Shown: piece by piece, positions 7,091-64,000 of the stretch
Numbering within the stretch: the first letter of the stretch is position 1
How the letters are laid out: the number at the start of each line of letters is the position of its first letter
Assembly (NCBI GenBank): GCA_017438775.1
Contig: JAFRUR010000096.1
Span: 1-64,000 of the forward strand
Direction: 5' to 3'
DNA length: 64,000 nt
From: Lachnospiraceae bacterium
GTDB taxonomy: Bacteria; Bacillota; Clostridia; Lachnospirales; Lachnospiraceae
Translations under genes and position numbers: made by a program
The notes under the pieces: model-generated
Told to the model about the DNA's origin: nothing
The model's input: the letters and a program-made list of their open reading frames with translations, nothing else
The model's database searches: none

Positions 7091-7264
7091 CATGCCTCCG
7101 TTTCCGCGCCCGCCGGGCGCAGGGGTCAAATGTCATCGGTCGGTATTTCTGCAAAAATCCGGTGTGCGGCAGTCTTCTGCGGGACGGGGACTGCGCTGTG
7201 GCTCCTCTCGTGCGGAACCTCCGCCCTGCCCTCCGCAGCGGCAGGGTCTGTATGCACCGTTGGC

Positions 7265-10006: not shown

Positions 10007-10043
10007 GTATGCGGTATCCTCCGGCGAAGGCGCGGGCCCTCGC

Positions 10044-38663: not shown

Positions 38664-38732
38664 GGCGGCCGGAGCGGACAGCACCGCACAGCATCACACA
38701 GCATTTCGTTTTTTGCATCGGGAGGAAGAATC

Positions 38733-39767
38733 ATGAAGGTCCTCGTGACCGGCGGCGCCGGCTACATCGGAAGCCATACGTGTCTGGAACTCTTAAACCG
38801 CGGCCATGAGGTGGTCGTCATCGACAACCTCTGCAACTCTTCGGAGGAGGCCATCGCCCGCGTGGAGGAACTCGCGGGAAAGTCCATCACCTTCTTTGAG
38901 GCGGACATCCGCGACGAGACCACGCTGGAGTGGATCTTCCGTCAGGAGTGCCCGATCGACGCGGTCATCCACTTCGCGGGTCTGAAAGCCGTGGGCGAGT
39001 CCGTGCAGAAGCCCCTCGAATACTACGAGAACAATGTCGGCGGGACTCTCACCCTGCTGCGCAAGATGCGCGAGCACGGCGTGAAGAAGATCATCTTCAG
39101 CTCCTCTGCGACGGTGTACGGAGATCCGGCTGAGATCCCGATCACGGAATCCTGCCCCAAGGGCGCGGTCACCAATCCCTACGGCCGCACCAAGAGCATG
39201 CTGGAGGACATCCTGACCGATCTGCACACGGCGGATCCGGAGTGGCAGGTGGTGCTCCTGCGGTACTTCAACCCGATCGGCGCGCATGAGAGCGGCATGA
39301 TCGGAGAGGATCCCGCTGGCATCCCGAACAACCTGATGCCCTACGTCACGCAGGTCGCCGTGGGCAAGCTCGAGAAGCTGCGCGTCTTCGGCAACGACTA
39401 CGACACCCCCGACGGCACCGGCGTGCGCGACTACATCCACGTCTGCGATCTGGCCTACGGCCATGTCTGTGCCCTTGGGCAGCTGGAGAAGAACGCGGGC
39501 GTGAGCATCTTCAACCTGGGCACCGGCCGCGGCTACAGCGTGCTCGAGGTGGTGCACGCCTTCGAGAAGGCCAGCGGAAAGCCGATTCCCTATGAGATCG
39601 TGCCGCGCCGCCCCGGCGACATCGCCACCTGCTACGCGGATCCCGGCAAGGCGGAGCGCGAGCTGGGCTGGAAAGCGGAGCGAGGTCTGGAAAAGATGTG
39701 CGAGGACTCCTACCGCTGGCAGAGCATGAATCCGGACGGATACCGGACGGAGATGCCGCAGGGCTGA
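38733..39767 (+). CDS. galE: UDP-glucose 4-epimerase
   Basis: 344 residues. The NAD-binding motif [17 protein letters not shown] starts the protein; [11 protein letters not shown] gives the catalytic serine and YGRTKSMLE the YxxxK pair. [12 protein letters not shown] and [13 protein letters not shown] are typical GalE blocks. It interconverts UDP-glucose and UDP-galactose, feeding galactose use and surface polysaccharide synthesis. GGGAGGAA precedes the ATG. Confidence 0.97.
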
Positions 39768-39769
39768 CG

Positions 39770-39812
39770 GAATTGAGCGCCGGCTGTTCTGCACTGCAGA
39801 ACTGATCAATTC
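39770..39812. repeat. Nested inverted repeats between galE and darA
   Basis: GTTCTGCA-c-TGCAGAAC at 39786-39802 is a perfect 8-1-8 palindrome. It is flanked by a second pair, GAATTGA (39770) and TCAATTC (39806-39812). No T-run follows, so it may be an operator, or an RNA structure in the leader of darA rather than a terminator. Confidence 0.65.
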
Positions 39813-39892
39813 ATATGTTTTCCGACCGCGCCTCATGGCGCCGGACGCCCCGGAAAGAAAGCCGGCAAAAAACATCCCGAAAGGGGAACTTT

Positions 39893-40237
39893 ATGAAACT
39901 GATCTACGCGATCGTGAGAAAAGAGGACGGGAACCTGGTCACCGAGGAACTCACCAGGAGCGGGTTCTCCGTGACCCGCATCGCCTCCACCGGGGGCTTC
40001 CTGCGCCGCGGCAACATGACCCTGATGATCGTCACGGAGCCGGAGCGCGTGGACGAGGCCGTCCGCATCATCAAAAAGGAGTGCGGCGAGCGGCGACAGG
40101 TCGTGTTTGAGAATCCGTATCCGGGCGCGGCCGGGGCCGCCGGCACCGTCTTTTCGGGTGCGGAGGTCCCGCTTCCCGTGGACACGGGCGGCGCCACGAT
40201 CTTTGTGGTGGAAGTGGAGAGGTTCGAGCGGGTATGA
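39893..40237 (+). CDS. darA: Cyclic-di-AMP receptor, PII-like (DarA/PstA family)
   Basis: 114 residues, family length. The start MKLIYAIVRKEDGNLVTEEL, the loop FSVTRIASTGGFLRRGNMTL with the conserved TGGFLRxGN motif that contacts c-di-AMP, and the end GGATIFVVEVERF match DarA. It is a trimeric cytoplasmic protein that binds cyclic-di-AMP; its downstream partner is unknown in most species. The ATG at 39893 has AAGGGG before it. Its stop overlaps the MntP-like gene by four bases, so the two are translated together. Confidence 0.92.
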   Translation: MKLIYAIVRKEDGNLVTEELTRSGFSVTRIASTGGFLRRGNMTLMIVTEPERVDEAVRIIKKECGERRQVVFENPYPGAAGAAGTVFSGAEVPLPVDTGGATIFVVEVERFERV

Positions 40238-40791
40238 CGGTCTGGGAACTCTTCCTGATCGCGGTGGGCCTGTCCATGGACGCCTTCGCGGTCTCCATCG
40301 TCAAGGGGCTTTCCGTAGAGAGAGCCGGCGTGCGCGAGCGCGTGACCGTGGGCCTCTGGTTCGGGGGCTTCCAGGCCCTCATGCCATTTCTGGGCTGGCT
40401 CCTGGGCGCGGCCTTTGCGGACCGCATCGCCCGCTACGACCACTGGGTGGCCTTCATCCTGCTGGGCCTGATCGGTGCCAACATGGTGCGGGAATCCCTC
40501 AGCAAAGAGGAGGAGCACCTGGGGGCGTCCCTGGCCCCGGGCCAGATGTTCCTTCTGGCCGTCGCCACCAGCATCGATGCCCTGGCCGTGGGCGTGACCT
40601 TCGCCTTCCTGAAGGTGGCCGCGGTCCCGGCCTCCGCCTTCATCGGCGTCGTCACCTTCCTGATCTCCTGCGCGGGCGTGGGCATCGGGCATCGCTTCGG
40701 CAGCCGGTTCAAGAGCGCCGCGGAACTCGCGGGCGGCATCATCCTGATCGGGATCGGCGCGAAGATCCTGATCGAGCATCTTTTTCTGTGA
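40234..40791 (+). CDS. mntP: Manganese efflux pump, MntP family
   Basis: 185 residues with six membrane segments in two DUF204 repeats. The conserved acidic motifs are AVGLSMDAFAVSIVKGL in the first half and AVATSIDALAVGVTFAF in the second. MntP exports Mn2+ and protects against manganese excess. The ATG overlaps the darA stop (ATGA), linking it with cyclic-di-AMP sensing. No yybP-ykoY riboswitch lies upstream, as the gene has no leader of its own. Confidence 0.92.
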   Translation: MTVWELFLIAVGLSMDAFAVSIVKGLSVERAGVRERVTVGLWFGGFQALMPFLGWLLGAAFADRIARYDHWVAFILLGLIGANMVRESLSKEEEHLGASLAPGQMFLLAVATSIDALAVGVTFAFLKVAAVPASAFIGVVTFLISCAGVGIGHRFGSRFKSAAELAGGIILIGIGAKILIEHLFL

Positions 40792-40801
40792 GGACAATCG
40801 T

Positions 40802-41302
40802 TTGGAAAGTTTAGTGAACTGGTATCAGAGCACACTGGGGGGCTTTCTGCCCAAGGAGGTCTTCTGCTTCCTGGTCTCCATGCTCCCGGTGATCGAGCTA
40901 CGCGGCGGTCTCATCGCCGCAAGCCTGCTGCAGATACCCCTTCTGAAAGCCAATATCATCTGCATTCTGGGCAACATGCTGCCCATCCCCTTCATCCTGC
41001 TTTTCATCCGCCGCATCTTCGCCTGGCTGCGGGAGCATCACCTGCTCACCGGCTTCGTGAACTGGCTGGAGAGGCGCGCGATGCGCAAGTCCAAGGGCGT
41101 GGAAAAGGGTGAATTCTGGTTCCTGCTGTTCTTTACGGGCATTCCTCTCCCGGGCACGGGCGGATGGACGGGATCCATCATCGCCTCGCTGCTGGAGCTG
41201 GATATCAAGAAGGCCATCATCGCCGTGTTCCTCGGGATCCTGCTGGCCGCGATTCTGATGGACATCATTTCCTACGGCCTGCTGGCGGGCATCGTGAGCT
41301 GA
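40802..41302 (+). CDS. COG2426-type small multidrug export-like membrane protein
   Basis: 166 residues with about four membrane segments. The sequence fits the COG2426 'small multi-drug export' group: FCFLVSMLPVIELRGGLIAA near the start and FTGIPLPGTGGWTGSIIASLL in the middle. The role of this group is not well proven; the SNARE-associated/DedA-like PIELRG and PGTG motifs suggest a transport function. The start is TTG at 40802, with GAGG about eight bases upstream and 10 bases after the mntP stop. Confidence 0.8.
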   Translation: MESLVNWYQSTLGGFLPKEVFCFLVSMLPVIELRGGLIAASLLQIPLLKANIICILGNMLPIPFILLFIRRIFAWLREHHLLTGFVNWLERRAMRKSKGVEKGEFWFLLFFTGIPLPGTGGWTGSIIASLLELDIKKAIIAVFLGILLAAILMDIISYGLLAGIVS

Positions 41303-41313
41303 GCGGAAAGCGT

Positions 41314-41355
41314 CCGGCGCTGCGGGGCGCGGCAGAGGACTGCGGCGCTGCGGGG
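41314..41355. repeat. 14-base direct repeat downstream of the COG2426 gene
   Basis: CGGCGCTGCGGGGC is found at 41314-41327 and 41342-41355, with a period of 28 bases, in the gap before the nucleosidase gene. No function is evident. Confidence 0.5.
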
Positions 41356-41452
41356 CCCATGGACCGCGGCTTTTGCTGAAAAGAACCGAAGGGCGGTGTG
41401 CTGTTTCCGTTTTGGGGCACGCGCCCGGGACATATGATCGGGAGGAAAAAAT

Positions 41453-42130
41453 GTGAAGAGAGCGGGACTGGTAGTCGCTGTCGAGATGGACGCGGTGCGC
41501 CGCAGGTACGGACGCCCCGAGAAGATGCTTCTGTTCCACGGACAGCCCGTAGAGGTCTATATCGTGGGCGCGTACGAACTTTACGCCTTCCACAGCGGAG
41601 CGGGAGAGATCGCGGCGGCGGCCGCGGCCCAGCTCCTCATCAGCGAGTGCGGCGTGGAGGCGGTGTTCAATTTCGGCATCGTCGGCGGCCTCACGGAGGA
41701 GATCTCGCACTCCCGGCTCTGCGTCGTGAAGAGCGTGGTGCACTACGATTTCGACACCTCGGCCTACGACCACTGCGAGCCCGGGCGTTACATGCAGTAC
41801 CCGTCCGTGCAGATCCCGACCACGGAAAAGTTCTGGAAGGCGGCCGCGAAGATCAGCCCCGACCTCACCCCGGTGGTCTGCGCCTCCGGCGATAAGTTCG
41901 TGGACGGCGGAGAGAAGAAGCGCGCCCTGCACGACGCGTGGGGCGCCGATATCTGCGAGATGGAGGCGGCCGGGATCGTCATGACCTGCGACCGCAACCG
42001 CGTGCCCTGCCTGCTGATCAAGATGGTCTCCGACGGCGTGGACGGCGGCGCCGAGGAGTTTGCCCGCGAGTTCGACAGCGCGAGCGACAGGTGTCTGGAA
42101 GTACTCGAAGAGGTGCTGGAGGAACTGTAA
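41453..42130 (+). CDS. Nucleosidase of the MTA/SAH nucleosidase-purine phosphorylase superfamily
   Basis: 225 residues. The fold is recognisable from GLVVAVEMDAVRR, the glycine-rich HSGAGEIAAAAAAQLLI, FNFGIVGGL, CASGDKFVDGG and the key ADICEMEAAGIVMTC, whose Met-Glu-Ala-Ala binds the ribose. These enzymes cleave methylthioadenosine or S-adenosylhomocysteine in methyl-group recycling; the precise substrate is not certain here because the sequence is divergent from Pfs. The start is GTG at 41453 with GGGAGGAA upstream; an ATG two bases earlier is out of frame. The DMT gene follows without a gap. Confidence 0.82.
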   Translation: MKRAGLVVAVEMDAVRRRYGRPEKMLLFHGQPVEVYIVGAYELYAFHSGAGEIAAAAAAQLLISECGVEAVFNFGIVGGLTEEISHSRLCVVKSVVHYDFDTSAYDHCEPGRYMQYPSVQIPTTEKFWKAAAKISPDLTPVVCASGDKFVDGGEKKRALHDAWGADICEMEAAGIVMTCDRNRVPCLLIKMVSDGVDGGAEEFAREFDSASDRCLEVLEEVLEEL

Positions 42131-50104: not shown

Positions 50105-51256
50105 ATGAAGAAGATCCTTGCGGCCATCCTGATCGCGGCCATGATCCTTTCCCTCGCAGCCTGCGGCGGAAACAGCACCCCTTCCACCACCAAAGCGGAC
50201 GGAACGACCCAGGCGGCTTCGAAGGACGACATCAAGCTCGCCAGCATCGCTCCCATCACCGGCAACCTCGCCCAGCACGGCGTCTCCATCCAGAACGCCG
50301 TCAACCTCAGACTGAAGCAGTACAACGAGGCCGGCGGCTACCAGGGCCGCAAAGTCGTCGTGGATTTCTATGACGACCAGGGCACCGCGGCCGAGGCCGT
50401 GAACGTCGCCAACAAGATCGTCGACGGCAACTACATCGCCTGCGTGGGTCCTTACACCTCCGCCTGCGGCCTGGCCATCGGCAGCCTCTTCGGCGAGGAA
50501 AACATCACCCTGTATGCCGTGTCTGCCTCCCACGAGGATTTCGCGAAGCAGAACGACATGTGCACCACCCAGTGCGCGCCTCAGTCCCGCAGCCGCGAGT
50601 TCGAGTGCGACTGGCTCTGGGATGAGGGTTACCGCAAGGTCGCCTATCTGTACCTGAACGACGATACCGGCAACGCCGCGCAGAACTGGTTCTCCAAGTT
50701 CTGGACCGCAAAGGGCGGCGAGCTCGTGCTCTCCGAGTCCTTCCTGGCGGATCAGAAGGATTTCTCCGCTGTCATGACCAAGATCGTCTCCAGCGGCGTG
50801 GAAGTCATCTCCAGCTACGCGAACTATGCCTCTGCCATCACCATCATCCAGCAGGCCCGCGACCTCGGCTACAAGGGACTCATCGTGTTCGGCGGCAACG
50901 CCCAGCAGCAGGAAGTCATCGACGTCTGCGGTGAGGCCGCGGAAGGCGTGAAGTTCATCTCTCAGTTCTCCAACGACTACCCGACCGAGGGCGTCAAGGC
51001 CTTCGTGGAGAGCTACGAGAAGGAGTACGGCCGCAAGCCCACGCAGGTCGACTATCAGGCTTACGAGGCCACGAACCACATCCTGCAGGTGCTGGATGAG
51101 CTCGGACCCGATGATACCAAGGCCATCGGCGAGAAGATCCATAACAATCCGAAGTCTCACAGCCTGTACGGCGATTACCCCTACGTGAACGGCGTTCCTC
51201 AGTTCCCGCTGCCCATCGTGCAGATCAAGGACGGCGTGTACTGCACCTATAAGTAA
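50105..51256 (+). CDS. livK: Liv-type ABC transporter substrate-binding lipoprotein
   Basis: 383 residues. A lipoprotein signal ends at Cys near residue 20 (ILSLAACGGN). A Thr/Ser-rich linker and a type I periplasmic-binding fold follow: DIKLASIAPITGNLAQHG, VVDFYDDQGTAAEAV and VGPYTSACGLAIGSLF. The family binds branched-chain amino acids, amides, urea or related compounds; which one is unclear. The absence of a second binding gene and the nearby DapA-type lyase suggest a specific substrate. A terminator-like hairpin separates it from livH. Confidence 0.92.
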   Translation: MKKILAAILIAAMILSLAACGGNSTPSTTKADGTTQAASKDDIKLASIAPITGNLAQHGVSIQNAVNLRLKQYNEAGGYQGRKVVVDFYDDQGTAAEAVNVANKIVDGNYIACVGPYTSACGLAIGSLFGEENITLYAVSASHEDFAKQNDMCTTQCAPQSRSREFECDWLWDEGYRKVAYLYLNDDTGNAAQNWFSKFWTAKGGELVLSESFLADQKDFSAVMTKIVSSGVEVISSYANYASAITIIQQARDLGYKGLIVFGGNAQQQEVIDVCGEAAEGVKFISQFSNDYPTEGVKAFVESYEKEYGRKPTQVDYQAYEATNHILQVLDELGPDDTKAIGEKIHNNPKSHSLYGDYPYVNGVPQFPLPIVQIKDGVYCTYK

Positions 51257-51271
51257 GTCTCAGACTCTCCG

Positions 51272-51325
51272 GGGCCTGCGGTCACCGGGCTGAAGATACG
51301 ACGCCCGTTCCCGCAGGCCCTTTTT
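51272..51325 (+). terminator. Terminator/attenuator between livK and livH
   Basis: GGGCCTGCGG (51272-51281) pairs perfectly with CCGCAGGCCC (51311-51320), enclosing a 29-base loop, then five T. It would let the binding protein be made in excess over the membrane parts. Confidence 0.7.
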
Positions 51326-51367
51326 CCGAGAGACGGCCCCGGAGGCCAATACCAAAAGGAGGGTCCT

Positions 51368-52246
51368 ATGTTACTGCAGCAGCTTATCAACGGCATCACC
51401 CTGGGCGCCACCTACGCGCTGGCCACCGTCGGCTTCTCGCTGGTCTACGGCGTCCTGGAACTGGCCAACTTTGCCAACGGCGCTTTCTACATCCTGGGCG
51501 CGTACTTCGCTATGGTCCTGTACGCCTCCATGGGGATGAATTTCGCGGTCTCCCTGGCGCTTGCCCTGGCCGGGACCGGCATTCTGGGCGCGGCGATGGA
51601 CGCCGGCCTCCTGCGGCCCATCCGCAGCAAGGGCGGCACACGCACCAGCATGATGATCTCCACCCTGGGCGTGGGCACCGCGATCACCAACCTGATCATC
51701 GTTCTGTTCGGAAGCGAGACCAAGCGCTTTCCGGACGCCTTCGGCGGCAAGCGCCTGGAGTTTGCGAGCGCGGTCGTCACGTACAAGCAGCTCTTCACCA
51801 TCCTGCTCTGCATCGTCGTGATGGTGGTCCTCTCCATCCTGGTATACCGCACAAAGCTGGGACGCGCGATGCGCGCCATTTCCCAGAACCCCGTGGCGGC
51901 CCGGCTGATGGGAATCGACACGAACACCGTGATCCTGCTGACCTTCTTCATCGGCACGATGTGCGCGGCCCTGTCCGGCACCGTCGTCTCCATGTATCTG
52001 GGCTCGCTGGATACCACGATGTATTCCTCCGTCAACATCAAGATGTTCGCCTCCGCCATCCTGGGCGGCGTCGGCTCGCTCCCCGGAGCGGTGCTCGGCG
52101 GCATGATCCTGGGCATGCTGGAGACCTTCGTTTCGGGGTACATCAGCACGGCGTACAAGGACGTCTTTTCATTCGCGATCCTGATCCTCGTTCTTCTGTT
52201 CCGTCCGGCCGGCCTGCTCGGTCAGCGGACCATCAAGAAGGTCTAA
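51368..52246 (+). CDS. livH: Liv-type ABC transporter permease LivH
   Basis: 292 residues with about eight membrane segments. Family blocks are QQLINGITLGATYALATVGFSLVYG at the start, RAISQNPVAARLMGIDTNTV (coupling loop) and ASAILGGVGSLPGAVLGGMILG. AAGGAGGG precedes the ATG. It forms one half of the channel with the product of the next gene. Confidence 0.94.
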   Translation: MLLQQLINGITLGATYALATVGFSLVYGVLELANFANGAFYILGAYFAMVLYASMGMNFAVSLALALAGTGILGAAMDAGLLRPIRSKGGTRTSMMISTLGVGTAITNLIIVLFGSETKRFPDAFGGKRLEFASAVVTYKQLFTILLCIVVMVVLSILVYRTKLGRAMRAISQNPVAARLMGIDTNTVILLTFFIGTMCAALSGTVVSMYLGSLDTTMYSSVNIKMFASAILGGVGSLPGAVLGGMILGMLETFVSGYISTAYKDVFSFAILILVLLFRPAGLLGQRTIKKV

Positions 52247-52261
52247 GGAGGGAGGACAGAC

Positions 52262-53272
52262 ATGATACGGAAACTTATCTCTCTCTGGGCAAAATACGAG
52301 AAGTGGGTGACTCTGGTCCTGGTGGCCCTGGCGGTGCTCTTTCCGGTAATCTCGGGATTTAACCGCTACGTGGTCAACATCGGCGTCATGGCCGGGATCT
52401 ACGCGATCCTGACCCTGAGCCTCAACATGATGACCGGCTACACCGGCGTCGTGACTCTGGGCCATGCGGCCTTCTACGGCCTGGGCGCCTACGCGGCGGG
52501 CATCCTCAACTGGAGGCTCGGCCTCAACGTCCCGCTCACCTTTATCGCGGCCATGGTCGTCTCCGGTCTGTTCGGCCTGCTTCTGGGCCTCACGACCCTG
52601 CAGCTCTCCGGCCGGTACCTGACCATCGTGACGCTCTCCTTCTGCGAGATCATCCGCATCCTGCTGATCAACCTGGAGTGGCTGACCCGCGGACCTCTGG
52701 GCATCACCAACATCAAGAAGGCGAACCTCTTCGGCTTTGTTTTCAACACCGCGACCAAGAACTACTATCTGGTGCTGGCCATGGTGCTGCTTTCGGTCTT
52801 CATCGTGCACCGGGTCATGAACTCCCGCACGGGACGCGCGATCATCGCCCTCAAGAACGATGAGACCGCCGCGAGCTCCATGAGCGTGAACGTGTTCGCC
52901 TACAAGCTGCGCGCGTTCTGCATCTCGAGCGCGATCGCCGGCCTGGCCGGCGCCCTGTACGCCCACTACATCGGCTACATCGATCCGAACAGCTTCGGCT
53001 TCACGCAGTCCATCCAGATCCTGTCCATGGGCATCCTGGGCGGCCTGGGCAACATCTTCGGCAGCATCTTCGGCGCGGTGTCCCTGAGCGTCCTTCCGGA
53101 GCTGCTGCGCAGCATCGGTCTGGAAGACTTCCGCCAGGTCATCTACGGCGTCCTGCTGGCCCTGCTGGTTCTGATTCGGCCGATGGGCATCTTTGGTAAG
53201 ATCAACCTGCGCCACCGCCGCCTGCAGGACAGCCTGCAGCTTGCGGGTGAAGGAGAGGAGGCAGAAGCATGA
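52262..53272 (+). CDS. livM: Liv-type ABC transporter permease LivM
   Basis: 336 residues with about nine or ten membrane segments. ILTLSLNMMTGYTGVVTLGHAAFYGLGAYAAG is the family signature (quoted in part), and ALKNDETAASSMSVNVFAYKL is the coupling loop. AGGAGGGAGG precedes the ATG. The last codons overlap livG by four bases. Confidence 0.94.
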   Translation: MIRKLISLWAKYEKWVTLVLVALAVLFPVISGFNRYVVNIGVMAGIYAILTLSLNMMTGYTGVVTLGHAAFYGLGAYAAGILNWRLGLNVPLTFIAAMVVSGLFGLLLGLTTLQLSGRYLTIVTLSFCEIIRILLINLEWLTRGPLGITNIKKANLFGFVFNTATKNYYLVLAMVLLSVFIVHRVMNSRTGRAIIALKNDETAASSMSVNVFAYKLRAFCISSAIAGLAGALYAHYIGYIDPNSFGFTQSIQILSMGILGGLGNIFGSIFGAVSLSVLPELLRSIGLEDFRQVIYGVLLALLVLIRPMGIFGKINLRHRRLQDSLQLAGEGEEAEA

Positions 53273-54036
53273 GCGAGATCGTCCTCAGCGGAAAAGGCGT
53301 GACGCAGCGCTTCGGCGGACTGACGGCCGTCCAGGACGTCACCTTCGAGGTCCCGAAGGGCGAGATCGTCAGCATCATCGGCCCCAACGGCGCCGGCAAG
53401 AGCACCCTGTTCAACTGTGTGACCGGCATCTACACCCCGACGGAAGGTCAGATCTTCTTCCTGGGGCAGGAGATCACCGGCAAGAAAGTGCATGAGATCT
53501 CCGCGCTCGGCATCGGGCGCACCTTCCAGAACATCCGGCTCTTCTCCGAGATGACGGCCCTTGAGAACGTCATCGTCGGCAGTCACGCGAAAGCGAAGAG
53601 CGGCATCGCCGATGCCCTGCTCCACACGCCGCGCTACCGCCGCGAGGAAGAGGAGGCCGTGAAGAAGGCGGAGGAGATCCTGAAACTGACGGGTCTGTAC
53701 GAGTACCGCTATCACTACGCGACGGCCCTGTCCTACGGCCTGCAGCGCCGGCTGGAGATCGCCCGCGCCCTCGCGTCCGACCCGGTGCTCCTCCTTCTGG
53801 ACGAGCCTGCGGCCGGCATGAACGAGCAGGAGACCCACAGCCTGACCGAGTTCATCCGCGAGCTCAAGGGCATGGGCTACACCATCCTGCTGATCGAGCA
53901 CGACATGAAGCTGATCATGAACATCAGCGACTACATCTACGTCCTGGACCGCGGCATCCCGATCGCCGAGGGAACGGCGGATGAGGTCCGTCAGAACCCG
54001 CTGGTCATCGAGGCATATCTGGGGAAGGAGGCGTAA
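53269..54036 (+). CDS. livG: Liv-type ABC transporter ATP-binding protein LivG
   Basis: 255 residues. Walker A is GPNGAGKSTLFNCV, Walker B LLLLDEPAAGMNEQE, and the H-loop LIEHDMKLIM; the signature LSYGLQRRLEIARAL has the LSYG form usual for LivG. IGRTFQNIRLFSEMT is typical of the group. It starts inside the last codons of livM. Confidence 0.95.
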   Translation: MSEIVLSGKGVTQRFGGLTAVQDVTFEVPKGEIVSIIGPNGAGKSTLFNCVTGIYTPTEGQIFFLGQEITGKKVHEISALGIGRTFQNIRLFSEMTALENVIVGSHAKAKSGIADALLHTPRYRREEEEAVKKAEEILKLTGLYEYRYHYATALSYGLQRRLEIARALASDPVLLLLDEPAAGMNEQETHSLTEFIRELKGMGYTILLIEHDMKLIMNISDYIYVLDRGIPIAEGTADEVRQNPLVIEAYLGKEA

Positions 54037-54039
54037 GAC

Positions 54040-54765
<726 letters not shown>

Positions 54766-54768
54766 GCG

Positions 54769-55098
54769 ATGTATCTGAAGGGACTGATCGTCGGGATCGC
54801 GACGTTTCTGCTGATCGGAATCTTTCATCCGATCGTGATCAAGGCAGAGTATTACTTTACAAAGAAGGTGTGGCCTGTTTTTCTGGTCTGTGGTATCGTA
54901 TTCCTTGCCGTCAGTCTCTTCATCAGCAACGTGTCCCTGAGCTGCATCTCCGCCGTGTGCGGAATCACCTGGCTGTGGGGGATCGGGGAGCTGTTCGAGC
55001 AGGAAGAACGGGTGCGGAAGGGCTGGTTCCCGAAGAACCCGAAGAGAGAGTATCCGAAGGAAGCAAATACGGCAAATGCCGAATATGGGAAGAACTGA
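54769..55098 (+). CDS. DUF4491 small membrane protein
   Basis: 109 residues with three membrane segments. YLKGLIVGIATFLLIGIFHP, VIKAEYYFTKKVWPVFLV, and the end RVRKGWFPKNPKREYP match the DUF4491 family, whose role is unknown. It is translated directly after livF and one base before the MocR regulator, so it belongs to this transcript, perhaps as an accessory to the importer. Confidence 0.8.
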   Translation: MYLKGLIVGIATFLLIGIFHPIVIKAEYYFTKKVWPVFLVCGIVFLAVSLFISNVSLSCISAVCGITWLWGIGELFEQEERVRKGWFPKNPKREYPKEANTANAEYGKN

Positions 55099-55099
55099 T

Positions 55100-56518
55100 A
55101 TGCTGACCATCGATAAAAACTCGCCGAAACCGCTGTACCAGCAGCTGTATGAGGGACTCAAGGCCGAAGCGCCGAGAGAGAACGTGGAGGGAATCCCTCT
55201 CGCTCCGATCCGCTCGCTTTCCAAAGAACTCGGCATATCCAAAAACACCGTGGAGCGCGTCTACCAGCAGCTCGTGGTGGAGGGATATATCTATGCCGTG
55301 CCCGGTTCCGGGTATTACTGGAACTATCTCAATCCCGCAAGGGTGGAGGATAAGCACGGGGTTCTGCTGCAGGCGGACCCGGAGAAGCCCCGTCCGGTGC
55401 GCTACAATCTCTGCTACGGCAACGGGAACAACCGGGACTTCCCATGGTACGTCTGGAAAAAGTGCGTGCGCCAGGCCCTTCAGCTGGAAGAGGAGGCGCC
55501 GTACCTGGAGTACGGCGATAAGAAGGGGTATCTGCCCCTGCGCGAGGTTCTCGCGCGGTTCCTGAAGTCCAAGCGCGGGGTCAACTGCCGGCCGGAGCAG
55601 ATCATCCTCTGCAGCGGCGTGCAGCAGGCCATCGCCATGCTGGTGCCCCTGCTCCCGCACGTCTACTATCCTCTGGCGATGGAGGAACCGGGGTACGACG
55701 GCGTGCGCAACACCTTCCTGCGCTACAATTACCAGCTGACGCCCATCACCGTGGAGGACCGGGGCCTGTCCCTGGATCAGCTGCGCGCGAGCAACGCAAA
55801 ACTGGTCTACGTGACGCCGTCCCATCAGTTCCCTTTGGGCCGTGTCCTTCCCATCGCGGAGCGCTATGAGCTGGTCAAGATCATGAGCGAGCGCGGCGGC
55901 TATATCCTGGAGGATGACTACGACAGCGAATTCCGCTACGGGAATATGGCGTTCCCTTCTCTCCAGTCTCTGGACGAAAACGGCTGCGTCATCTACGTCG
56001 GATCCTTCTCCAAAACGCTTTCTCCGACGCTCCGCTTCACGTACATGGTCCTGCCGGAAGAACTGCTCGCGAAATACGAAAAGCTCTACCGGAACCACAA
56101 GAACACGATTCCGGATTTTCTGCAGATCGCGCTGCACCAGTTCGTCAACGAGGGATATTATTCCCAGTGGGTGCGCAAGCAGCTCAAGCTGAACGAGCGC
56201 AAGTACGAGGTGCTCCGTGAGATGTTCGCGGGCCCGGAGTGCCCCGCCTGCGTCCAGGCGATGTTCAACAACGCCGGCGTGCATCTGGTGGTGCGCATGA
56301 ACACCGGGCGCCCGCAGGAGGAAGTGCTCCGGCGCTGCGAGGAAAATGGCGTCCGCATCTACTCGCTGCGCACCTCCTGGCACAACCAGTCGCTCGTGGA
56401 CAACGATCTTTACCTGCTGGGCTTCTCCTCGATCTGTGAAGAGGACCTGCGGGAGGCGATCGGCATTCTGTTCCGGACGGTGCGTGAGATCACGGCGGCA
56501 TCGCAGAAGATCTCCTGA
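55100..56518 (+). CDS. MocR-type GntR-family regulator with aminotransferase domain
   Basis: 472 residues. The N-terminal winged helix (about 5-75) has PLYQQLYEGLKAE and LSKELGISKNTVERVYQQLVVEGYI. The rest is a class I aminotransferase fold, with the PLP lysine in YVGSFSKTLSPTLRF and the phosphate-cup EDDYDSEFRYG. MocR proteins bind PLP and sense an amino-type ligand; they often control neighbouring genes. Being last in the importer transcript, it may regulate the cluster from the flavoprotein to itself. I chose the ATG at 55100, one base after the DUF4491 stop; an in-frame start eight codons earlier is possible. Confidence 0.92.
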   Translation: MLTIDKNSPKPLYQQLYEGLKAEAPRENVEGIPLAPIRSLSKELGISKNTVERVYQQLVVEGYIYAVPGSGYYWNYLNPARVEDKHGVLLQADPEKPRPVRYNLCYGNGNNRDFPWYVWKKCVRQALQLEEEAPYLEYGDKKGYLPLREVLARFLKSKRGVNCRPEQIILCSGVQQAIAMLVPLLPHVYYPLAMEEPGYDGVRNTFLRYNYQLTPITVEDRGLSLDQLRASNAKLVYVTPSHQFPLGRVLPIAERYELVKIMSERGGYILEDDYDSEFRYGNMAFPSLQSLDENGCVIYVGSFSKTLSPTLRFTYMVLPEELLAKYEKLYRNHKNTIPDFLQIALHQFVNEGYYSQWVRKQLKLNERKYEVLREMFAGPECPACVQAMFNNAGVHLVVRMNTGRPQEEVLRRCEENGVRIYSLRTSWHNQSLVDNDLYLLGFSSICEEDLREAIGILFRTVREITAASQKIS

Positions 56519-57300: not shown

Positions 57301-57354
57301 GCTGCCGTGCGGCAGCTGACAGGAGAGGGGATCAAAATGGGAGAAGGATCGTGA
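57301..57354 (+). promoter_or_regulatory. Structured leader and five-codon open frame before rnfC
   Basis: GCTGCCG-tg-CGGCAGC (57301-57316) is a tight hairpin. After it, AGGAGAGG and an ATG at 57337 open a tiny frame (Met-Gly-Glu-Gly-Ser) whose TGA at 57352-57354 overlaps the rnfC GTG at 57351. This arrangement could couple rnfC translation to the small frame. Confidence 0.5.
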
Positions 57355-58703
57355 ATAAGAGTTTTCAAGGCGGTGTGCACCTTCCGGAGCAGAAAGAACT
57401 GAGTTCCGGTTCGCCGCTGCGGTGGTTTCAGACGGAAGGGGATATGGTGTATCCCCTTTCTCAGCATATCGGCAAACCGGCCAGACCTGTCGTGAAAAAG
57501 GGCGATTCGGTTCTGGTTGGTTCCTGTCTGGCCGAAGCTGACGGGTTTGTCTCCGCTCCGGTGTTCTGCGGGTGTTCCGGTACGGTCAAGGCAATTGAAA
57601 AACGGCGCGTGATCTCGGGTGCCCTGGCAGACTGCATCATCGTGGAGAATGACGGCGCGTTTACGATGGCAGAGGGCGTGGGAGAAGCGCGGGATCTTTC
57701 AGAGATCTCAAACAGTGAAATTCCGGATATTGTGCAGCGCGCCGGCATTGTCGGCCTGGGCGGGGCGGGCTTCCCGACCCATGTCAAACTCCGCCCGAAG
57801 GACCCGGATTCCATTCGTTTCATCATCGCCAACGGCGCCGAGTGTGAGCCGTATCTCACCTGCAACGACCGTCTCATGCGGGAGTACGGCGACGGCATCG
57901 CCGCAGGCCTTTCCCTGGTCCTGCGGCTGTTCCCGAACGCGCAGGGCGTGATCGGAATCGAGGACAACAAACCGGAGGCCATCGCGGCCATGCAGAAGGC
58001 GGTGGCGGGAGAGCCGCGCATGAGCGTGATGCCCCTGCAGACCAAGTACCCTCAGGGCGGAGAGCACAGCCTGATCAGGGCGGTCGCCGGGATCGATTAT
58101 CCGGTGGCAAAGCTGCCGGCGGACGTGGGCTGCATTGTGGAAAACGTGGGGACCCTCTATGCGATCTGGCGTGCCGCTGCCTTCCGGGAACCTCTGTTTT
58201 CCCATTGCTTTACTCTCACCGGAGACGCGGTCAAAACCCCCGGAAATTACTTTGTCCGTGAAGGAACGAGCCTCCAGGAGATCATCGATGCTTCCGGCGG
58301 GCTGAAGGAGGGCGTTACTTTGAAGAAGGCGCTGGCGGGCGGACCGATGATGGGCTTTGCCATCTCGGATCTGAGCGCGCCGGTCCAGAAGACGACCAAC
58401 GGTCTCACCCTCCTGTGTGAGGACGGCAGTGAACTTGCCCTGAAGAAACAGACGGCCTGTCTGCGCTGCGGACGCTGCACCACCGTCTGTCCCACGGGGC
58501 TGCTTCCCGAACTCATGGCGGATGCGGCCGCGAAGGGCGATTACGACCGTTACGAGAAGAAACTCTACGGGCTGGAATGCGTCTCCTGCGGCTCCTGCTC
58601 CTACATCTGCCCGGCCAAGCGGCCGCTGACCGAGACTTTCAAGGCGGTCAAAGCGGAGATCCTGGCCCGCAGACGCGCCGCGCAGGAAGGAGGTGCGAAA
58701 TGA
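57351..58703 (+). CDS. rnfC: Rnf electron transport complex subunit C
   Basis: 450 residues. SFQGGVHLPEQKELSSGSPL starts the protein as in clostridial RnfC. GIVGLGGAGFPTHVKL and ANGAECEPYLTCND form the NADH/FMN-binding part. Two ferredoxin-type clusters follow, CLRCGRCTTVCPTGLLP and CVSCGSCSYICPAKRPL. RnfC is the peripheral subunit where electrons from ferredoxin reach NAD+. The start is GTG. It is the first gene of an operon of order C, D-G fusion, E, A, B, and overlaps the next gene by four bases. Confidence 0.96.
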   Translation: MNKSFQGGVHLPEQKELSSGSPLRWFQTEGDMVYPLSQHIGKPARPVVKKGDSVLVGSCLAEADGFVSAPVFCGCSGTVKAIEKRRVISGALADCIIVENDGAFTMAEGVGEARDLSEISNSEIPDIVQRAGIVGLGGAGFPTHVKLRPKDPDSIRFIIANGAECEPYLTCNDRLMREYGDGIAAGLSLVLRLFPNAQGVIGIEDNKPEAIAAMQKAVAGEPRMSVMPLQTKYPQGGEHSLIRAVAGIDYPVAKLPADVGCIVENVGTLYAIWRAAAFREPLFSHCFTLTGDAVKTPGNYFVREGTSLQEIIDASGGLKEGVTLKKALAGGPMMGFAISDLSAPVQKTTNGLTLLCEDGSELALKKQTACLRCGRCTTVCPTGLLPELMADAAAKGDYDRYEKKLYGLECVSCGSCSYICPAKRPLTETFKAVKAEILARRRAAQEGGAK

Positions 58704-60259
58704 GCACAGTCCTGAATCTTTCCTCCGGCCCCCATATCCGCGACCGCCGGTCCACGCCGTTTCTTATGTATGTGGTTGCCCTGGCCCTGCTTCCCGCCGC
58801 CGCGGTGGGCGTCTGGGTCAGCGGGCTGCGGGCGCTCTGGGTCATTTTGACCTCGGTCATCACGGCAGTCGGCACAGAGTTTTTCTATGACAAACTGATG
58901 GGCAAGCCCGACACCTGGCGCGACGGCTCGGCCCTGGTCACAGGCCTGCTTCTGGCCATGACGCTTTCGGCGGACACACCGCTCTATGCGCCTATCCTCG
59001 GATCCCTCTTCGCGATCCTGGTGGTCAAATGCGCTTTCGGCGGCCTCGGCAAGAACTTCATCAATCCCGCGCTGACGGGCCGCTGCTTCCTGCTGATCTC
59101 TTTCCCGAACGCGATGACCAGCTACAGTGTGGACGGCGTCACAGGGGCCACGCCCCTTGCTCAGCTGGCGGCGGGCAATGTCGTCAATGTGACGAAGATG
59201 TTCCTCGGAACCGCCGGCGGCGTCATCGGCAGCTGCACGGTGGCTCTGCTGATCGGCGGGCTCCTGCTGTGGGCGCTGGATATCATCCACGGACAGATCT
59301 GCTTCTCCATCCTGGGCGGATTTGTTCTGTTCCTCGGATTGTTCGGCGGAAAAGGGTTTGATCCGGGCTTTCTTGCCGCGCATCTGTGCGGCGGCGGCGT
59401 GATGCTCGCGGCGTTCTTCATGGCCACGGACTACGTCACCTCGCCGGTCAGCCGGCTCGGTCAGACGGTCTATGGACTGTTGATCGGTGTGCTGGGCGCC
59501 ATTTTCCGGGTCTTCGGCACCGCGGCCGATTCCTTCAGCTATGCGGTCATCATCGGCAACCTCTTTGTCCCTCTGATCGATACCTATATCATCCCCAAGC
59601 CGTATGCGTTCCGAAAGGGCGCCCTTGCGGCTCAGAACGGAGAGGTGAAGCCTCCGCTGTCCAGGCGTGTGCCAAAACCGGTCATTGCCCTGGCCTTGAT
59701 CACGCTGGTCGCGGGACTTGCGCTCAGCGGCACATATTCGCTTACGAAGGACGCCATCGAAGAGCAGAAGCGAGCTGCCAACAAGGCCGCCTACCAGGCT
59801 GTCTGTCCGGATGCGGAAACCTTCACCGGGCTGGATGACAAGGTGGCGAAAGTCAGCGGAGACGTCTACGGCTCCGGGTTTGGAAGGGTGACCATCAACG
59901 AGGCGGTCGAGGGCTTTGATGCCGCCGGCAATTCCGTCGGCTATGCGATCTCCGCCACTTCCGCGGAAGGCTATGACGGCAATATCACGCTTTACGTCGG
60001 CGTTGCACCTGACGGATCGCTCCGGTCGATCTCTTTTACGGAACTGCACGAGACTCCCGGCAAGGGCATGCTCTGCGACGAGCCGGCCTTTAAGGATCAG
60101 TTCAGCGGCAAAAATGTTTCCGCTTTCAAGATCAACGCGGGCAGCGGAGACGAAAAGATCGACGGCGTCACCGGCGCGACAGTTTCCTCCAGGGCGGTCG
60201 TCAACGCGGTCAATGCCGCGCTGGACTTCTATCAGACGCATATCAAGGGGGTGAACTGA
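58700..60259 (+). CDS. rnfDG: Fused Rnf subunits D and G
   Basis: 519 residues in one frame. Residues 1 to about 315 are RnfD: about ten membrane segments, FGGLGKNFINPALTGRCFL, and the flavinylation motif DGVTGATPL with Thr151. Residues from about 326 to 519 are RnfG: one membrane segment (about 328-346), the FMN-binding domain with TELHETPGKG, and the flavinylation motif DGVTGATVSS with Thr494. In most Rnf operons D and G are separate adjacent genes, and here the fusion follows that gene order. The linker (about 300-328) has no stop or frame change. Two covalent FMN groups would thus sit on one chain, moving electrons across the membrane. The ATG overlaps the rnfC stop. Confidence 0.95.
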   Translation: MSTVLNLSSGPHIRDRRSTPFLMYVVALALLPAAAVGVWVSGLRALWVILTSVITAVGTEFFYDKLMGKPDTWRDGSALVTGLLLAMTLSADTPLYAPILGSLFAILVVKCAFGGLGKNFINPALTGRCFLLISFPNAMTSYSVDGVTGATPLAQLAAGNVVNVTKMFLGTAGGVIGSCTVALLIGGLLLWALDIIHGQICFSILGGFVLFLGLFGGKGFDPGFLAAHLCGGGVMLAAFFMATDYVTSPVSRLGQTVYGLLIGVLGAIFRVFGTAADSFSYAVIIGNLFVPLIDTYIIPKPYAFRKGALAAQNGEVKPPLSRRVPKPVIALALITLVAGLALSGTYSLTKDAIEEQKRAANKAAYQAVCPDAETFTGLDDKVAKVSGDVYGSGFGRVTINEAVEGFDAAGNSVGYAISATSAEGYDGNITLYVGVAPDGSLRSISFTELHETPGKGMLCDEPAFKDQFSGKNVSAFKINAGSGDEKIDGVTGATVSSRAVVNAVNAALDFYQTHIKGVN

Positions 60260-60260
60260 G

Positions 60261-60938
60261 ATGAATAAGTACCTTGAGCGTATCTACAACGGCGTCATCA
60301 AAGAGAATCCCATCCTTGTGCTGATGCTGGGCATGTGCCCGACGCTGGCTGTCTCCACGCAGGCCATAAACGGCATCGGCATGGGGCTCTCGACCACGGC
60401 GGTGCTGATCTGTTCCAACCTCCTGATCTCCGCCCTTCGCAAGGTCATTCCCGATCAGGTTCGCCTTCCGGCCTACATCGTGATCGTGGCGTCCTTCGTG
60501 ACTGTAACGGAACTGCTGATCGAGGCCTATCTGCCTTCGATCTACAGCGCGCTGGGGATCTACATCCCTTTGATCGTTGTCAACTGCATCATCCTGGGCA
60601 GGGCAGAGGCGTATGCCAACAAACACTCGGTCGGGCTGTCCGTCATGGACGGCCTCGGCATGGGCATCGGTTTCACCCTTGCGCTTACTCTGGCGGCCGC
60701 TGTGCGCGAGATTCTGGGCAGCGGCACCTGCTTCGGGATGAGAGTCCTGCCGGAAGCCGTGGAGCCCATCGGGCTGTTTGTGCAGCCGCCGGGAGCTTTC
60801 CTGGTGATCGCTCTGTTCATCATTATCATGAATGCCATCGGCATTAAGACGCGTCAGCGCAAACTGGTGGAGAACGGCTGCGATGGCTGCTGCGCGGCGT
60901 GTACGGCAGACTGTGACCGGAGGGAGGATGTGAAATGA
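60261..60938 (+). CDS. rnfE: Rnf electron transport complex subunit E
   Basis: 225 residues with six membrane segments. ERIYNGVIKENPILVLMLGMCPTLAVS at the start (quoted in part) and VVNCIILGRAEAYANK are family blocks that include the cysteines of the membrane Fe-S centre shared with RnfA. The C-terminus is Cys-rich (CDGCCAACTADC), a feature that may bind an extra metal centre or simply be lineage-specific. It begins one base after the fused rnfDG stop and overlaps rnfA by four bases. Confidence 0.96.
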   Translation: MNKYLERIYNGVIKENPILVLMLGMCPTLAVSTQAINGIGMGLSTTAVLICSNLLISALRKVIPDQVRLPAYIVIVASFVTVTELLIEAYLPSIYSALGIYIPLIVVNCIILGRAEAYANKHSVGLSVMDGLGMGIGFTLALTLAAAVREILGSGTCFGMRVLPEAVEPIGLFVQPPGAFLVIALFIIIMNAIGIKTRQRKLVENGCDGCCAACTADCDRREDVK

Positions 60939-61516
60939 AGGGTTTGATTCTGATCATCATTTCCGGTGCCCTGATCAATAACGTGGTCCTGAACCAGTTC
61001 CTGGGCATCTGCTCCTTCCTTGGAGTCTCCAGACAGATGAAGGCGTCCGCCAGCCTGGGCGGCGCGGTCATCTTCGTGATCACCATCGCTTCTGCCGTGG
61101 CGAGCCTGCTCTACGACAATGTGCTTGCGCCCCTTGGCATGGGCTTCATGAAGACCATCGTCTTCATTCTGGTCATCGCGGCATTGGTGCAGATCGTGGA
61201 GATGTTCCTCAAGAAGCATTCTCCGGGGATCTACAAAGCCCTCGGCATCTATCTGCCTCTGATCACCACCAACTGTGCTGTGCTCGGCGTTGCGCTGACC
61301 AACGTGCAGAACGGTTACAACTTCATCCAGAGCGTGCTGTCCGGCTTCGGTACCGCCGTCGGCTTTACCCTGGCCATCGTCCTCTTGGCGGGCATTCGGT
61401 CCCGCATCGAAGAGAGCGACCTGCCCGAGCCTCTGCGCGGGGCTCCCATCGTCCTGATCGCTGCCGCACTCATGTCCATTGCTTTCATGGGGTTTGCGGA
61501 TCTTGCGCTCGTATAG
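60935..61516 (+). CDS. rnfA: Rnf electron transport complex subunit A
   Basis: 193 residues with six membrane segments. SGALINNVVLNQFLGICSFLG and TTNCAVLGVALTN are the matching inverted halves with the conserved cysteines that, with RnfE, hold a membrane 2Fe-2S centre. The ATG overlaps the rnfE stop. Confidence 0.97.
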   Translation: MKGLILIIISGALINNVVLNQFLGICSFLGVSRQMKASASLGGAVIFVITIASAVASLLYDNVLAPLGMGFMKTIVFILVIAALVQIVEMFLKKHSPGIYKALGIYLPLITTNCAVLGVALTNVQNGYNFIQSVLSGFGTAVGFTLAIVLLAGIRSRIEESDLPEPLRGAPIVLIAAALMSIAFMGFADLALV

Positions 61517-61526
61517 GAGGTGCGTG

Positions 61527-62339
61527 ATGGATACGATTTTGATCACGACCCTGGTCATCACGCTGATCGGAATCCTGGTAGGCGCCGGCCTTGTTTCCAC
61601 CGGAAAACTCTTCCACGTCGAGGTGGATGAGAGAGAGACGGCCGTGCGCGAGGCTCTGCCAGGCAACAACTGCGGCGCCTGCGGATTTGCCGGCTGTGAT
61701 GCGCTGGCTGCCGCCATCGCAAAGGGCGAGGCTCCGGTCAACAGCTGTCCCGTGGGCGGAGCCCCGGTGACGAAGGCCATCGGCGCCATCATGGGAACAG
61801 ACGCAGAAGCGCCGGAGAAGAAGGTCGCGTTCGTTCTTTGCAAAGGCTCCTGTGATGTCACGAAGAATCAGGGAAACTATGTCGGCGTACAGGACTGCCG
61901 TACGGCTGTGCTGGGCGGCATCCGCACTGCGGACTGCGATCACGGCTGTCTGGGACTCGGTTCCTGCGTGCGGGCCTGCCCGGAAAACGCCATGCGAATT
62001 GTTGACGGCGTGGCGGTCGTTGACCGGGCCCGGTGCATCGGCTGCGGCCTCTGCGTAAAGGCCTGCCCGAAGGGAATCATCGAGCTGGTTCCCGAGAAAC
62101 AGCGCGTTATTGTGCAGTGCAGGAACACCGACAAGGGCCAGACGGTTCGAAAAATCTGCAAAGCCGGCTGCATCGGCTGCATGATCTGCGTGAAGCAGTG
62201 CGAATTTGATGCCATCCACGTGGTGAACGATCTGGCAAAAATCGATTATTCCAAGTGTACGCAGTGCGGCAAGTGCGTCGAAAAGTGCCCCGCAAAGGTC
62301 ATCACGCCCCCCGCCGTCAAATTGTCCGATCCGGAATAA
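61527..62339 (+). CDS. rnfB: Rnf electron transport complex subunit B
   Basis: 270 residues. An N-terminal membrane helix (about 5-25) is followed by the 4Fe-4S domain NNCGACGFAGCDALAAAI with a late SCPVGG, and then several ferredoxin-type motifs: CLGLGSCVRACP, CIGCGLCVKACP, CIGCMICVKQCE and CTQCGKCVEKCP. This cysteine-rich form is typical of clostridial RnfB, the entry point for electrons from reduced ferredoxin. I chose the ATG at 61527 with AGGAGG six bases upstream. nrfA follows nine bases later. Confidence 0.96.
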   Translation: MDTILITTLVITLIGILVGAGLVSTGKLFHVEVDERETAVREALPGNNCGACGFAGCDALAAAIAKGEAPVNSCPVGGAPVTKAIGAIMGTDAEAPEKKVAFVLCKGSCDVTKNQGNYVGVQDCRTAVLGGIRTADCDHGCLGLGSCVRACPENAMRIVDGVAVVDRARCIGCGLCVKACPKGIIELVPEKQRVIVQCRNTDKGQTVRKICKAGCIGCMICVKQCEFDAIHVVNDLAKIDYSKCTQCGKCVEKCPAKVITPPAVKLSDPE

Positions 62340-62348
62340 GGAGGAACC

Positions 62349-63653
62349 ATGGACAGGAAAAGAACTATTTACAAGCTGCTTTGCACTGTGGTGATCATTG
62401 CGGTGGCGGCGCTTTTGCTCAGCGGTGTCCTCAATCGCGGGGCCGTCCGTTATCACAAGGATCCCCTGACCGGAGAGGACGTCACTCCCGTTAAGGCGGC
62501 CGCACCGGAAGAAACAGCCTACGACGGCACGATCAACGCCGAGGCTTGGGCTCAGATCTTTCCGAATATCGCGTCCAGCATGAAGGACAATGAACGCAAT
62601 CAGGAGATCGTCAGCTATCTCGAGCAGGATCCGTACCTCATCAACATTTATGAGGGCTACGGCTTTGCCAAAGATTACGGCTCTGCCAGAGGCCACGAGT
62701 ACACTCTCGAAGACGTGAACCATACCGCCAGACCGCACCCGATGGCCAACTGTCTGACCTGCAAGACGCCCAACTTCGCCAAACTCGTGCAGGACAAGGG
62801 TGTGGCCGCCTACACGATGTCGTTTCAGGAGGTCTTCGACCAGATCAAGGCGATGGGTGAAGATATCAGCTGCTACACCTGCCACGGCAACAGCGCCGGC
62901 AACGACGGGGAACTCCGTGTGACGCATACCTACGTCAACAAGGCCCTTGGCGGAAACGTGTCCTCCATCGATCCCGCGACGCTTTCCTGCGGCCAGTGCC
63001 ACATCGAATACTTCTTTACCCCCGCGGATAAAGAGACCATGATGCCGTATGACAGTATTGAGACCATGACTCCCGAGGCGATTCTCGCCTACTATGACAG
63101 CATGGTTCTTCCGGACGGGACCGTCGGCTTCGCGGACTGGACGCAGGAGATCACCGGCGCCAGATTGCTGAAGGCGCAGCACCCTGAGATGGAGACCTTC
63201 CTTCAGGGACCGCACGCCGGGGATCTCAGCTGTGCGGACTGCCACATGGAAGTCAAAATGGACGGCAACGGCACGGTCTACCACAGCCACGAGCTCGTCA
63301 GTCCGCTGGAGAACGAGGCCATTCTGAGCACCTGCGTGCGTTGCCACGGCTCCGTCAACATGGTCGAGAAGGTGCATCGCATCCAGGATCAGGTGACGGC
63401 CAGAGAGACCGATATCGGCAACAAACTCTCCGCCCTGAAGGATTCCCTGGCCGCGGCGAACGTGGCAGGCACCCTCGGGGAAGCGGAGCTGAACGAGGTG
63501 CGCAAACTCTACCGTGAAGCGCAGTGGTTCTTCGATTTCTGCTATGTGGAGAACGCCGAGGGCGCTCACAACTCGACACTTGCCAACCGCTGCCTTGATA
63601 CGGCGGCACAGAAGATCGCAGAGGCGACCGCGCTTCTGCCGAAGGGTCAATAA
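62349..63653 (+). CDS. nrfA: Pentahaem cytochrome c nitrite reductase (ammonia-forming)
   Basis: 434 residues. An N-terminal signal or membrane anchor (about 8-28) has no lipobox. Five haem motifs are seen: CLTCK at 135-139 (the lysine-ligated catalytic haem that defines NrfA), CYTCH at 175, CGQCH at 214, CADCH at 295 and CVRCH at 329. Catalytic residues known from Wolinella NrfA have clear counterparts: Arg114 (SARGHEY), Tyr221 (QCHIEYFF) and His278 (KAQHPEME); Glu220 fits the calcium site. It reduces nitrite to ammonium with six electrons outside the membrane. No nrfH is present; the gene follows rnfB by nine bases with AAGGAGGAA ahead of the ATG, so Rnf may supply electrons directly or through a quinol partner encoded elsewhere. 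Confidence 0.95.
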   Translation: MDRKRTIYKLLCTVVIIAVAALLLSGVLNRGAVRYHKDPLTGEDVTPVKAAAPEETAYDGTINAEAWAQIFPNIASSMKDNERNQEIVSYLEQDPYLINIYEGYGFAKDYGSARGHEYTLEDVNHTARPHPMANCLTCKTPNFAKLVQDKGVAAYTMSFQEVFDQIKAMGEDISCYTCHGNSAGNDGELRVTHTYVNKALGGNVSSIDPATLSCGQCHIEYFFTPADKETMMPYDSIETMTPEAILAYYDSMVLPDGTVGFADWTQEITGARLLKAQHPEMETFLQGPHAGDLSCADCHMEVKMDGNGTVYHSHELVSPLENEAILSTCVRCHGSVNMVEKVHRIQDQVTARETDIGNKLSALKDSLAAANVAGTLGEAELNEVRKLYREAQWFFDFCYVENAEGAHNSTLANRCLDTAAQKIAEATALLPKGQ

Positions 63654-63662
63654 ACGAAGCCG

Positions 63663-63691
63663 CTGCGCAGCTCCGGGCCGGTGCTGCGCAG
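63663..63691 (+). repeat. Intercistronic hairpin between nrfA and resB
   Basis: Two copies of CTGCGCAG (63663-63670, 63684-63691), a self-complementary octamer, can pair around a 13-base loop. There is no T-run, so it is more likely an mRNA stability element than a terminator. Confidence 0.5.
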
Positions 63692-63716
63692 TGTTCTTCG
63701 ACAGAAGAGGAATCTC

Positions 63717-64000
63717 ATGCAAAAACGCCTGAAAAGAATCGGAGGGTTTTTCTCTTCGATGCGCTTCGGCATTGCGCTGCTGGTGGTGCTGGCCGCGGCC
63801 TGCGCCCTTGGCAGCTTCCTTCCCCAGGGATATGCGCTGGACTGGTATTTGAACAGGTATCCTGCGCGCACTGCCGCACTGATCTACGGGCTGGGGCTTG
63901 ACGATGTGTTTCACAGCCTGTGGTTCCTGGTCCTGGCCGTGGTTCTCTGCTGCAATCTGCTGCTGTGCAATCTGCTGCACCTGCCCGGCGTGATCCGACG
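63717..64000 (+). CDS. resB: Cytochrome c maturation protein ResB/Ccs1-like, N-terminal part (cut by window edge)
   Basis: The first 94 residues are visible. FFSSMRFGIALLVVLAAACALGSFLPQG is a typical ResB opening: a cytoplasmic head followed by a first membrane helix. A second helix follows after about 45 residues (SLWFLVLAVVLCCNLLLCNLL). ResB with CcsA/ResC forms the system II haem ligation machine that NrfA needs for its five haems. GAAGAGG precedes the ATG and it lies 63 bases after nrfA. A ccsA gene is predicted just beyond the edge. Confidence 0.85.
   Translation, partial: MQKRLKRIGGFFSSMRFGIALLVVLAAACALGSFLPQGYALDWYLNRYPARTAALIYGLGLDDVFHSLWFLVLAVVLCCNLLLCNLLHLPGVIR

Follow-up and report, generated by a model that had tools for sequence, protein, structure and literature searches.

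RnfD and RnfG share one reading frame in a complete rnf operon

Why should RnfD and RnfG be joined in a single polypeptide in an rnf operon that runs on into nrfA, and does this arrangement offer an electron exit from Rnf to nitrite? The locus that raises these questions belongs to a Lachnospiraceae bacterium of gut/rumen type (assembly GCA_017438775.1, contig JAFRUR010000096.1, positions 1 to 64,000, forward strand). We refer to this whole stretch of 64,000 nt as the window, and its genome is G000 in our genome samples. The gene order is rnfC-DG-E-A-B-nrfA-resB-ccsA, with the rnf genes spanning 57351-62339 as one operon and all six NCBIfam subfamily cut-offs passed. The features are:

57351..58703, + strand: rnfC, 450 aa; TIGR01945 478 bits (cut-off 246); NADH/FMN domain, SLBB, two 4Fe-4S motifs
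58700..60259, + strand: rnfDG fusion, 519 aa; RnfD residues 1-302, linker about 303-325, RnfG 326-519 (Pfam, NCBIfam, model)
59609..59674, + strand: junction linker, residues about 304-325; basic, bridging the last RnfD helix and the RnfG membrane helix 323-349
60261..60938, + strand: rnfE; TIGR01948 244.9 bits (cut-off 213)
60935..61516, + strand: rnfA; TIGR01943 256 bits (cut-off 229)
61527..62339, + strand: rnfB; TIGR01944 97.7 bits (cut-off 68.7); FeS and Fer4 domains
62340..62344, + strand: GGAGG ribosome-binding site in the 9-base gap between the rnfB stop and the nrfA start, read directly
62349..63653, + strand: nrfA, pentahaem nitrite reductase; PF02335 264 bits; 1gu6 E 2.5e-42; one CXXCK, four CXXCH
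63681..64000, + strand, continuing to contig position about 64994: resB-like cytochrome c assembly gene; Pfam PF05140 E 1e-50
Contig about 64828-65814, beyond the window: ccsA-like gene following the resB-like gene; PF01578 E 7e-55

The rnfB start was set at the ATG at 61527; the TTG frame as listed begins at 61479. The Fe-S motifs that go with Rnf membership are found in RnfB and RnfC (Fer4 and FeS domains), and in place of separate D and G genes, which are customary but not defining, there is one frame of 519 aa. Upstream of the operon lie genes for an ABC transporter of the branched-chain amino-acid type, arranged as an operon (50105-54765), and, after them, a GntR/MocR-like regulator frame (55076-56518), all named from sequence only. 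An 831-codon open frame on the minus strand (61485-63998), antisense to rnfB, nrfA and resB, is probably a GC-rich shadow frame.

Read directly, the rnfDG frame runs for 519 codons from the ATG at 58700 to the TGA at 60259 with no stop, and its start overlaps the rnfC stop in a 4-base ATGA; an alternative longer in-frame start at 58577 falls within rnfC. Pfam places NQR2_RnfD_RnfE at residues 7-302 (E 1e-97) and FMN_bind at residues 424-509 (E 4e-20), while NCBIfam assigns residues 11-302 to rnfD (239.6 bits, cut-off 207) and residues 329-512 to rnfG (108.3 bits, cut-off 102). Both halves are complete domains above curated cut-offs. Candidate covalent FMN sites are predicted at Thr151, within VTGAT-P, and Thr494, within VTGAT-V. 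The domain searches and the reading of residues thus agree with the initial annotation, which had described a complete RnfD with Thr151 and a complete RnfG with Thr494 in one uninterrupted frame, and the join recurs in orthologues. In an alignment of 20 fused relatives Thr151 does not vary and the Thr494 position is Thr or Ser, with Ser in several of them; at this RnfG flavin site (window 60173-60184), SGAS (or SGCT) replaces SGAT in several fused relatives.

The predicted model of RnfDG is of moderate confidence (mean pLDDT 72.7, pTM 0.54). Its first half resembles RnfD and its second half RnfG of Clostridium tetanomorphum and Acetobacterium woodii (7zc6_D/9eri_D and 7zc6_G/9eri_G, respectively). 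The model shows little order in the linker region (block pLDDT 46-59, residues 301-350), and the length of the linker differs among the aligned fused relatives. Residues 299-326 hold 7 K/R against 1 D/E, and a hydrophobic segment follows at residues 323-349.

The fusion is uncommon but has arisen repeatedly

The D-G fusion is uncommon but recurrent. Rnf was matched in 358 of 397 genomes sampled from the same family and an uninterrupted fusion in 19 of these 358 (20 operons, since G233 has two), in keeping with the earlier description of D and G as ordinarily separate. In a sample of the phylum, 201 of 398 genomes had an Rnf match, with at least three full-length, stop-free fusions (G000, G204, G835) among the matches listed. 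The openly licensed papers that we searched name neither an RnfD-RnfG fusion nor an rnf-nrfA operon.

A FastTree phylogeny of 103 Rnf operons (concatenated C, D, G, E, A, B) placed the window operon inside a clade of 22 rows with a support of 100. Twenty-one of these rows were scored as fused, and in the last, L109, the contig ends within the RnfG half of a fusion, so that the whole clade (22/22 operons) is fused. With L109 counted as fused, there are five state changes on the tree, whose direction the tree does not fix; the origins of fusion concern the window clade and L076, L070, L074 and the group L075/77/78/79/98/101, which includes Eubacterium ruminantium. RnfDG fusion therefore arose about five times. 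Of 71 unfused operons in which both genes are present, 64 have D and G overlapping or abutting (an overlap of 1-4 bases in 44 of the 71), which makes their fusion a short evolutionary step.

The idea that members of one genus share the fusion operon had to be rejected: G001, from the same genus, carries another Rnf in which D and G are not fused, and it gave no nrfA match; the operon therefore varies within the genus. The fused-rnf operon may be able to move between lineages.

The fusion is older than its association with nrfA

The nrfA gene starts 9 bases past the rnfB stop, with a GGAGG of its own. Its product far exceeds the Cytochrom_C552 cut-off of PF02335 (24.1 bits), carries CLTCK as its CXXCK motif, and has an N-terminal hydrophobic stretch that could serve as a membrane anchor. 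The haem motifs align with those of the NrfA structure 1gu6 in the PDB, and in the same alignment TAR lies over TLR, CGQCHIEYF over CGQCHVEYY and GPHAGD over GIHGKN, positions that we take to be the active-site Arg, Tyr and His of E. coli NrfA. Scores were below the NCBIfam equivalog cut-offs (219.8 vs. 595 for NF008339 and 182 vs. 692 for TIGR03152), and the protein is a divergent member of the family.

NrfA (PF02335) is rare, occurring in 10 of the 397 family genomes. In five of these 10, nrfA lies inside an rnf operon, and all five operons are fused; five further named loci (L088, L090-L093) have the order rnfC-DG-E-A-B-nrfA-resB-ccsA. All 10 rnf-nrfA operons found sit in the fused clade of the window, in two nrfA-linked sub-branches: resB-ccsA is downstream in the rumen branch, and upstream of rnfC in L063 and L067. 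Three near relatives are cut short: G100 (L061) has no nrfA in the remaining 0.8 kb downstream, L089 has an apparent nrfA 5′ end before its sequence breaks, and the L094 sequence stops inside rnfB.

The initial annotation had asked whether fusion correlates with a neighbouring cytochrome. Seen from nrfA the answer is yes, every rnf-nrfA operon found being fused, but seen from the fusion it is no: fusion without nrfA is seen in the clade's basal members, as it is in the other four fusion origins, and fused relatives lacking nrfA include G100, G176, G233, G251 and G335. An independent-pairs test of fusion against nrfA gave p = 1. The fusion therefore predates the arrival of nrfA in the window clade and cannot, on these data, be tied to it causally. 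With only one of five fusion origins having nrfA, we rejected the use of the fusion as a marker of NrfA.

Candidate electron donors to NrfA

The known partners of NrfA, namely NrfH, CymA and NrfBCD, all depend on quinol (PMC12285233). Neither the NapC/NrfH family (PF03264) nor NrfD (PF03916) was found in any of the five rnf-linked genomes searched, and the UbiA prenyltransferase, present in 14/14 controls, had no match in these five; since most of the genomes are draft MAGs, these absences are provisional. A pattern scan of the window genome found nrfA to be its sole CXXCH cluster, and nrfA probably encodes its only multi-haem enzyme. The rnf-nrfA operon, together with the failure to find a known donor, suggests that Rnf may feed electrons directly to nitrite.

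We propose that the locus encodes an otherwise complete Rnf, a ferredoxin:NAD+ oxidoreductase and ion pump, in which D and G form one chain and the outer RnfG flavin also passes electrons to NrfA; we put the probability of this reading at roughly 0.58. Because the C-terminus of RnfD and the N-terminus of RnfG are both predicted to be cytoplasmic, a short basic linker could join them with the topology unchanged. Each half would be expected to fold and be flavinylated as usual, and ApbE, required for flavinylation, is found in the window genome. The fusion goes back to the ancestor of one Rnf clade and was probably acquired through a minor change where the D and G genes overlap. Where sub-lineages later gained nrfA (with resB-ccsA), the outward FMN of the RnfG half would most likely pass electrons from ferredoxin or NADH to NrfA, with the result that nitrite could be reduced to ammonium without quinone, alongside the normal Fd:NAD+ cycle. 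Assembly into a working Rnf, flavinylation and electron transfer to NrfA are what we infer from genomic context.

Within Rnf, a mobile RnfG serves as the outer flavin carrier linking RnfAE to RnfD, and RnfG and RnfD already sit together in Rnf structures (PMC9588780). The earlier suggestion that fusion locks the two flavins in a 1:1 ratio consequently adds little. Its companion, an electron exit towards NrfA, fares better, given the conserved operon, the lack of NrfH, NrfD and UbiA matches and the single CXXCH cluster, but it has to be detached from the fusion itself.

It is possible, although we find it less likely, that the fusion is near-neutral and acts like separate D and G, with nrfA placed in the operon for co-regulation only and served by another flavoprotein donor. 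The ease with which overlapping D and G genes can merge, and the p value of 1 with nrfA in one fused clade among about five fusions, are in line with such a scenario. So is the occurrence of nrfA-resB-ccsA away from rnf in five family genomes, two of which, G138 (98% complete) and G250 (89%), have no Rnf match, indicating that NrfA can use another donor in this family; G138 in particular speaks against Rnf as the exclusive donor. Against it, the fusion has been retained in every member of a deep clade, linkage to nrfA may have arisen twice, with differing gene orders and both times in the fused clade, and no other haem donor is seen in the window genome.

Some individual loci deserve mention here. 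The nrfA-resB-ccsA loci of G138 (L080) and G250 (L084) lack NrfH as well as an Rnf match. On contig 52 of the window genome (about 38458-41583; L195, L200), close to apbE, a 787-aa frame containing two FMN_bind domains encodes a flavoprotein that is a possible alternative flavin donor. G083, which also has rnf-nrfA, encodes an 839-aa frame with many FMN_bind domains that adjoins apbE (contig 45, 2079-4253; L201).

Two further explanations concern the fused chain itself. RnfDG might be made fused and then cut in the linker after insertion to give ordinary D and G. The variable, poorly ordered linker would allow for this, but the short linkers of some relatives (L066) leave scant room for cleavage, and we think it improbable. 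Finally, although most relatives have D and G overlapping in different frames, such that one assembly or sequencing indel (at about 59600-59700) could imitate a fusion, this is ruled out because independently assembled genomes share the D-G join: it is found in orthologues of 39-63% overall identity, recurs in about 20 independently assembled clade operons, and fusions, some of separate origin, are also present in cultured strains, e.g. Eubacterium ruminantium ATCC 17233 (L101).

Other flavoproteins beside fused rnf operons

In some members of the clade, extracytosolic-type FMN_bind flavoproteins are encoded next to fused rnf: at L066 (7016-7774), at L071 (9146-10390, three FMN_bind domains) and at L069 (282-4409, a 1376-residue FMN_bind/FAD_binding_2 protein). 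At L062 (G258; 7069-10535), tatA, tatC and a gene for a 690-aa twin-arginine-type FMN_bind/FAD_binding_2 (fumarate-reductase-like) protein lie between rnfB and nrfA, an arrangement that looks like the addition of another external acceptor to this operon. These extra partners were assigned with Pfam, as an RnfG-based profile was too weak and missed the L062 flavoprotein. Among 146 neighbours of unfused operons, also assigned with Pfam, FMN_bind, flavocytochrome and cytochrome families were outside the commonest 25, a count that does not cover families of one or two members. The flavoprotein neighbours would fit a fused Rnf clade that often feeds outside acceptors.

Relation to known systems and significance

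The locus resembles canonical Rnf (RnfABCDGE; C. tetanomorphum 7ZC6, A. woodii 9ERI) in the domains of its six subunits, the flavin-site motifs of D and G and the Fe-S motifs of B and C, and differs in having D and G in one chain and nrfA-resB-ccsA next in the operon. In Methanosarcina acetivorans, the multi-haem cytochrome MmcA takes electrons from Rnf outside the cell membrane (PMC11024163), which sets a precedent for Rnf supplying acceptors beyond the cytosol. The two cases have in common an Rnf operon carrying a multi-haem cytochrome; unlike NrfA, however, MmcA is a heptahaem conduit encoded at the start of the operon and not a nitrite reductase, and M. acetivorans has methanophenazine. 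Clusters with multi-flavinylated RnfG are a second precedent, since their outer flavin arm is believed to supply other acceptors outside the cytosol (PMC8238504). The RnfG of those clusters has acquired additional FMN or haem domains, whereas here an ordinary RnfG is fused to RnfD and the acceptor, NrfA, is separate.

With the NrfHA, NrfABCD and CymA systems (PMC12285233) the locus shares a pentahaem NrfA with a CXXCK haem and system II (ResB/CcsA) maturation genes, but no NrfH, CymA-like, NrfD or UbiA match was detected in the window genome. The two-subunit NQR/RNF-like systems (PMC8238504, PMC11334425) likewise pair an NqrB/RnfD homologue with an FMN_bind partner; in these, NqrB/RnfD is fused to an NAD-binding domain and there are only two subunits, in contrast to the full Rnf set seen here.

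With D and G naturally in one chain, RnfG is tethered, and structural biologists could use this to test whether its flavin swings between RnfAE and RnfD, as has been proposed. We suggest, tentatively and at somewhat short of even odds, that the Rnf with fused RnfDG is a dedicated donor to NrfA, a fourth kind of NrfA partner that would support quinone-independent nitrite respiration in rumen clostridia. Direct reduction of NrfA by Rnf, if it occurs, could allow clostridia that lack quinones to use nitrite as an electron sink, and energy could be conserved in the process. Reducing power would then be diverted to ammonium in rumen clostridia, with a bearing on the way in which feeding nitrate cuts methane from the rumen and on the question of whether Rnf does more than act as a ferredoxin:NAD+ pump.
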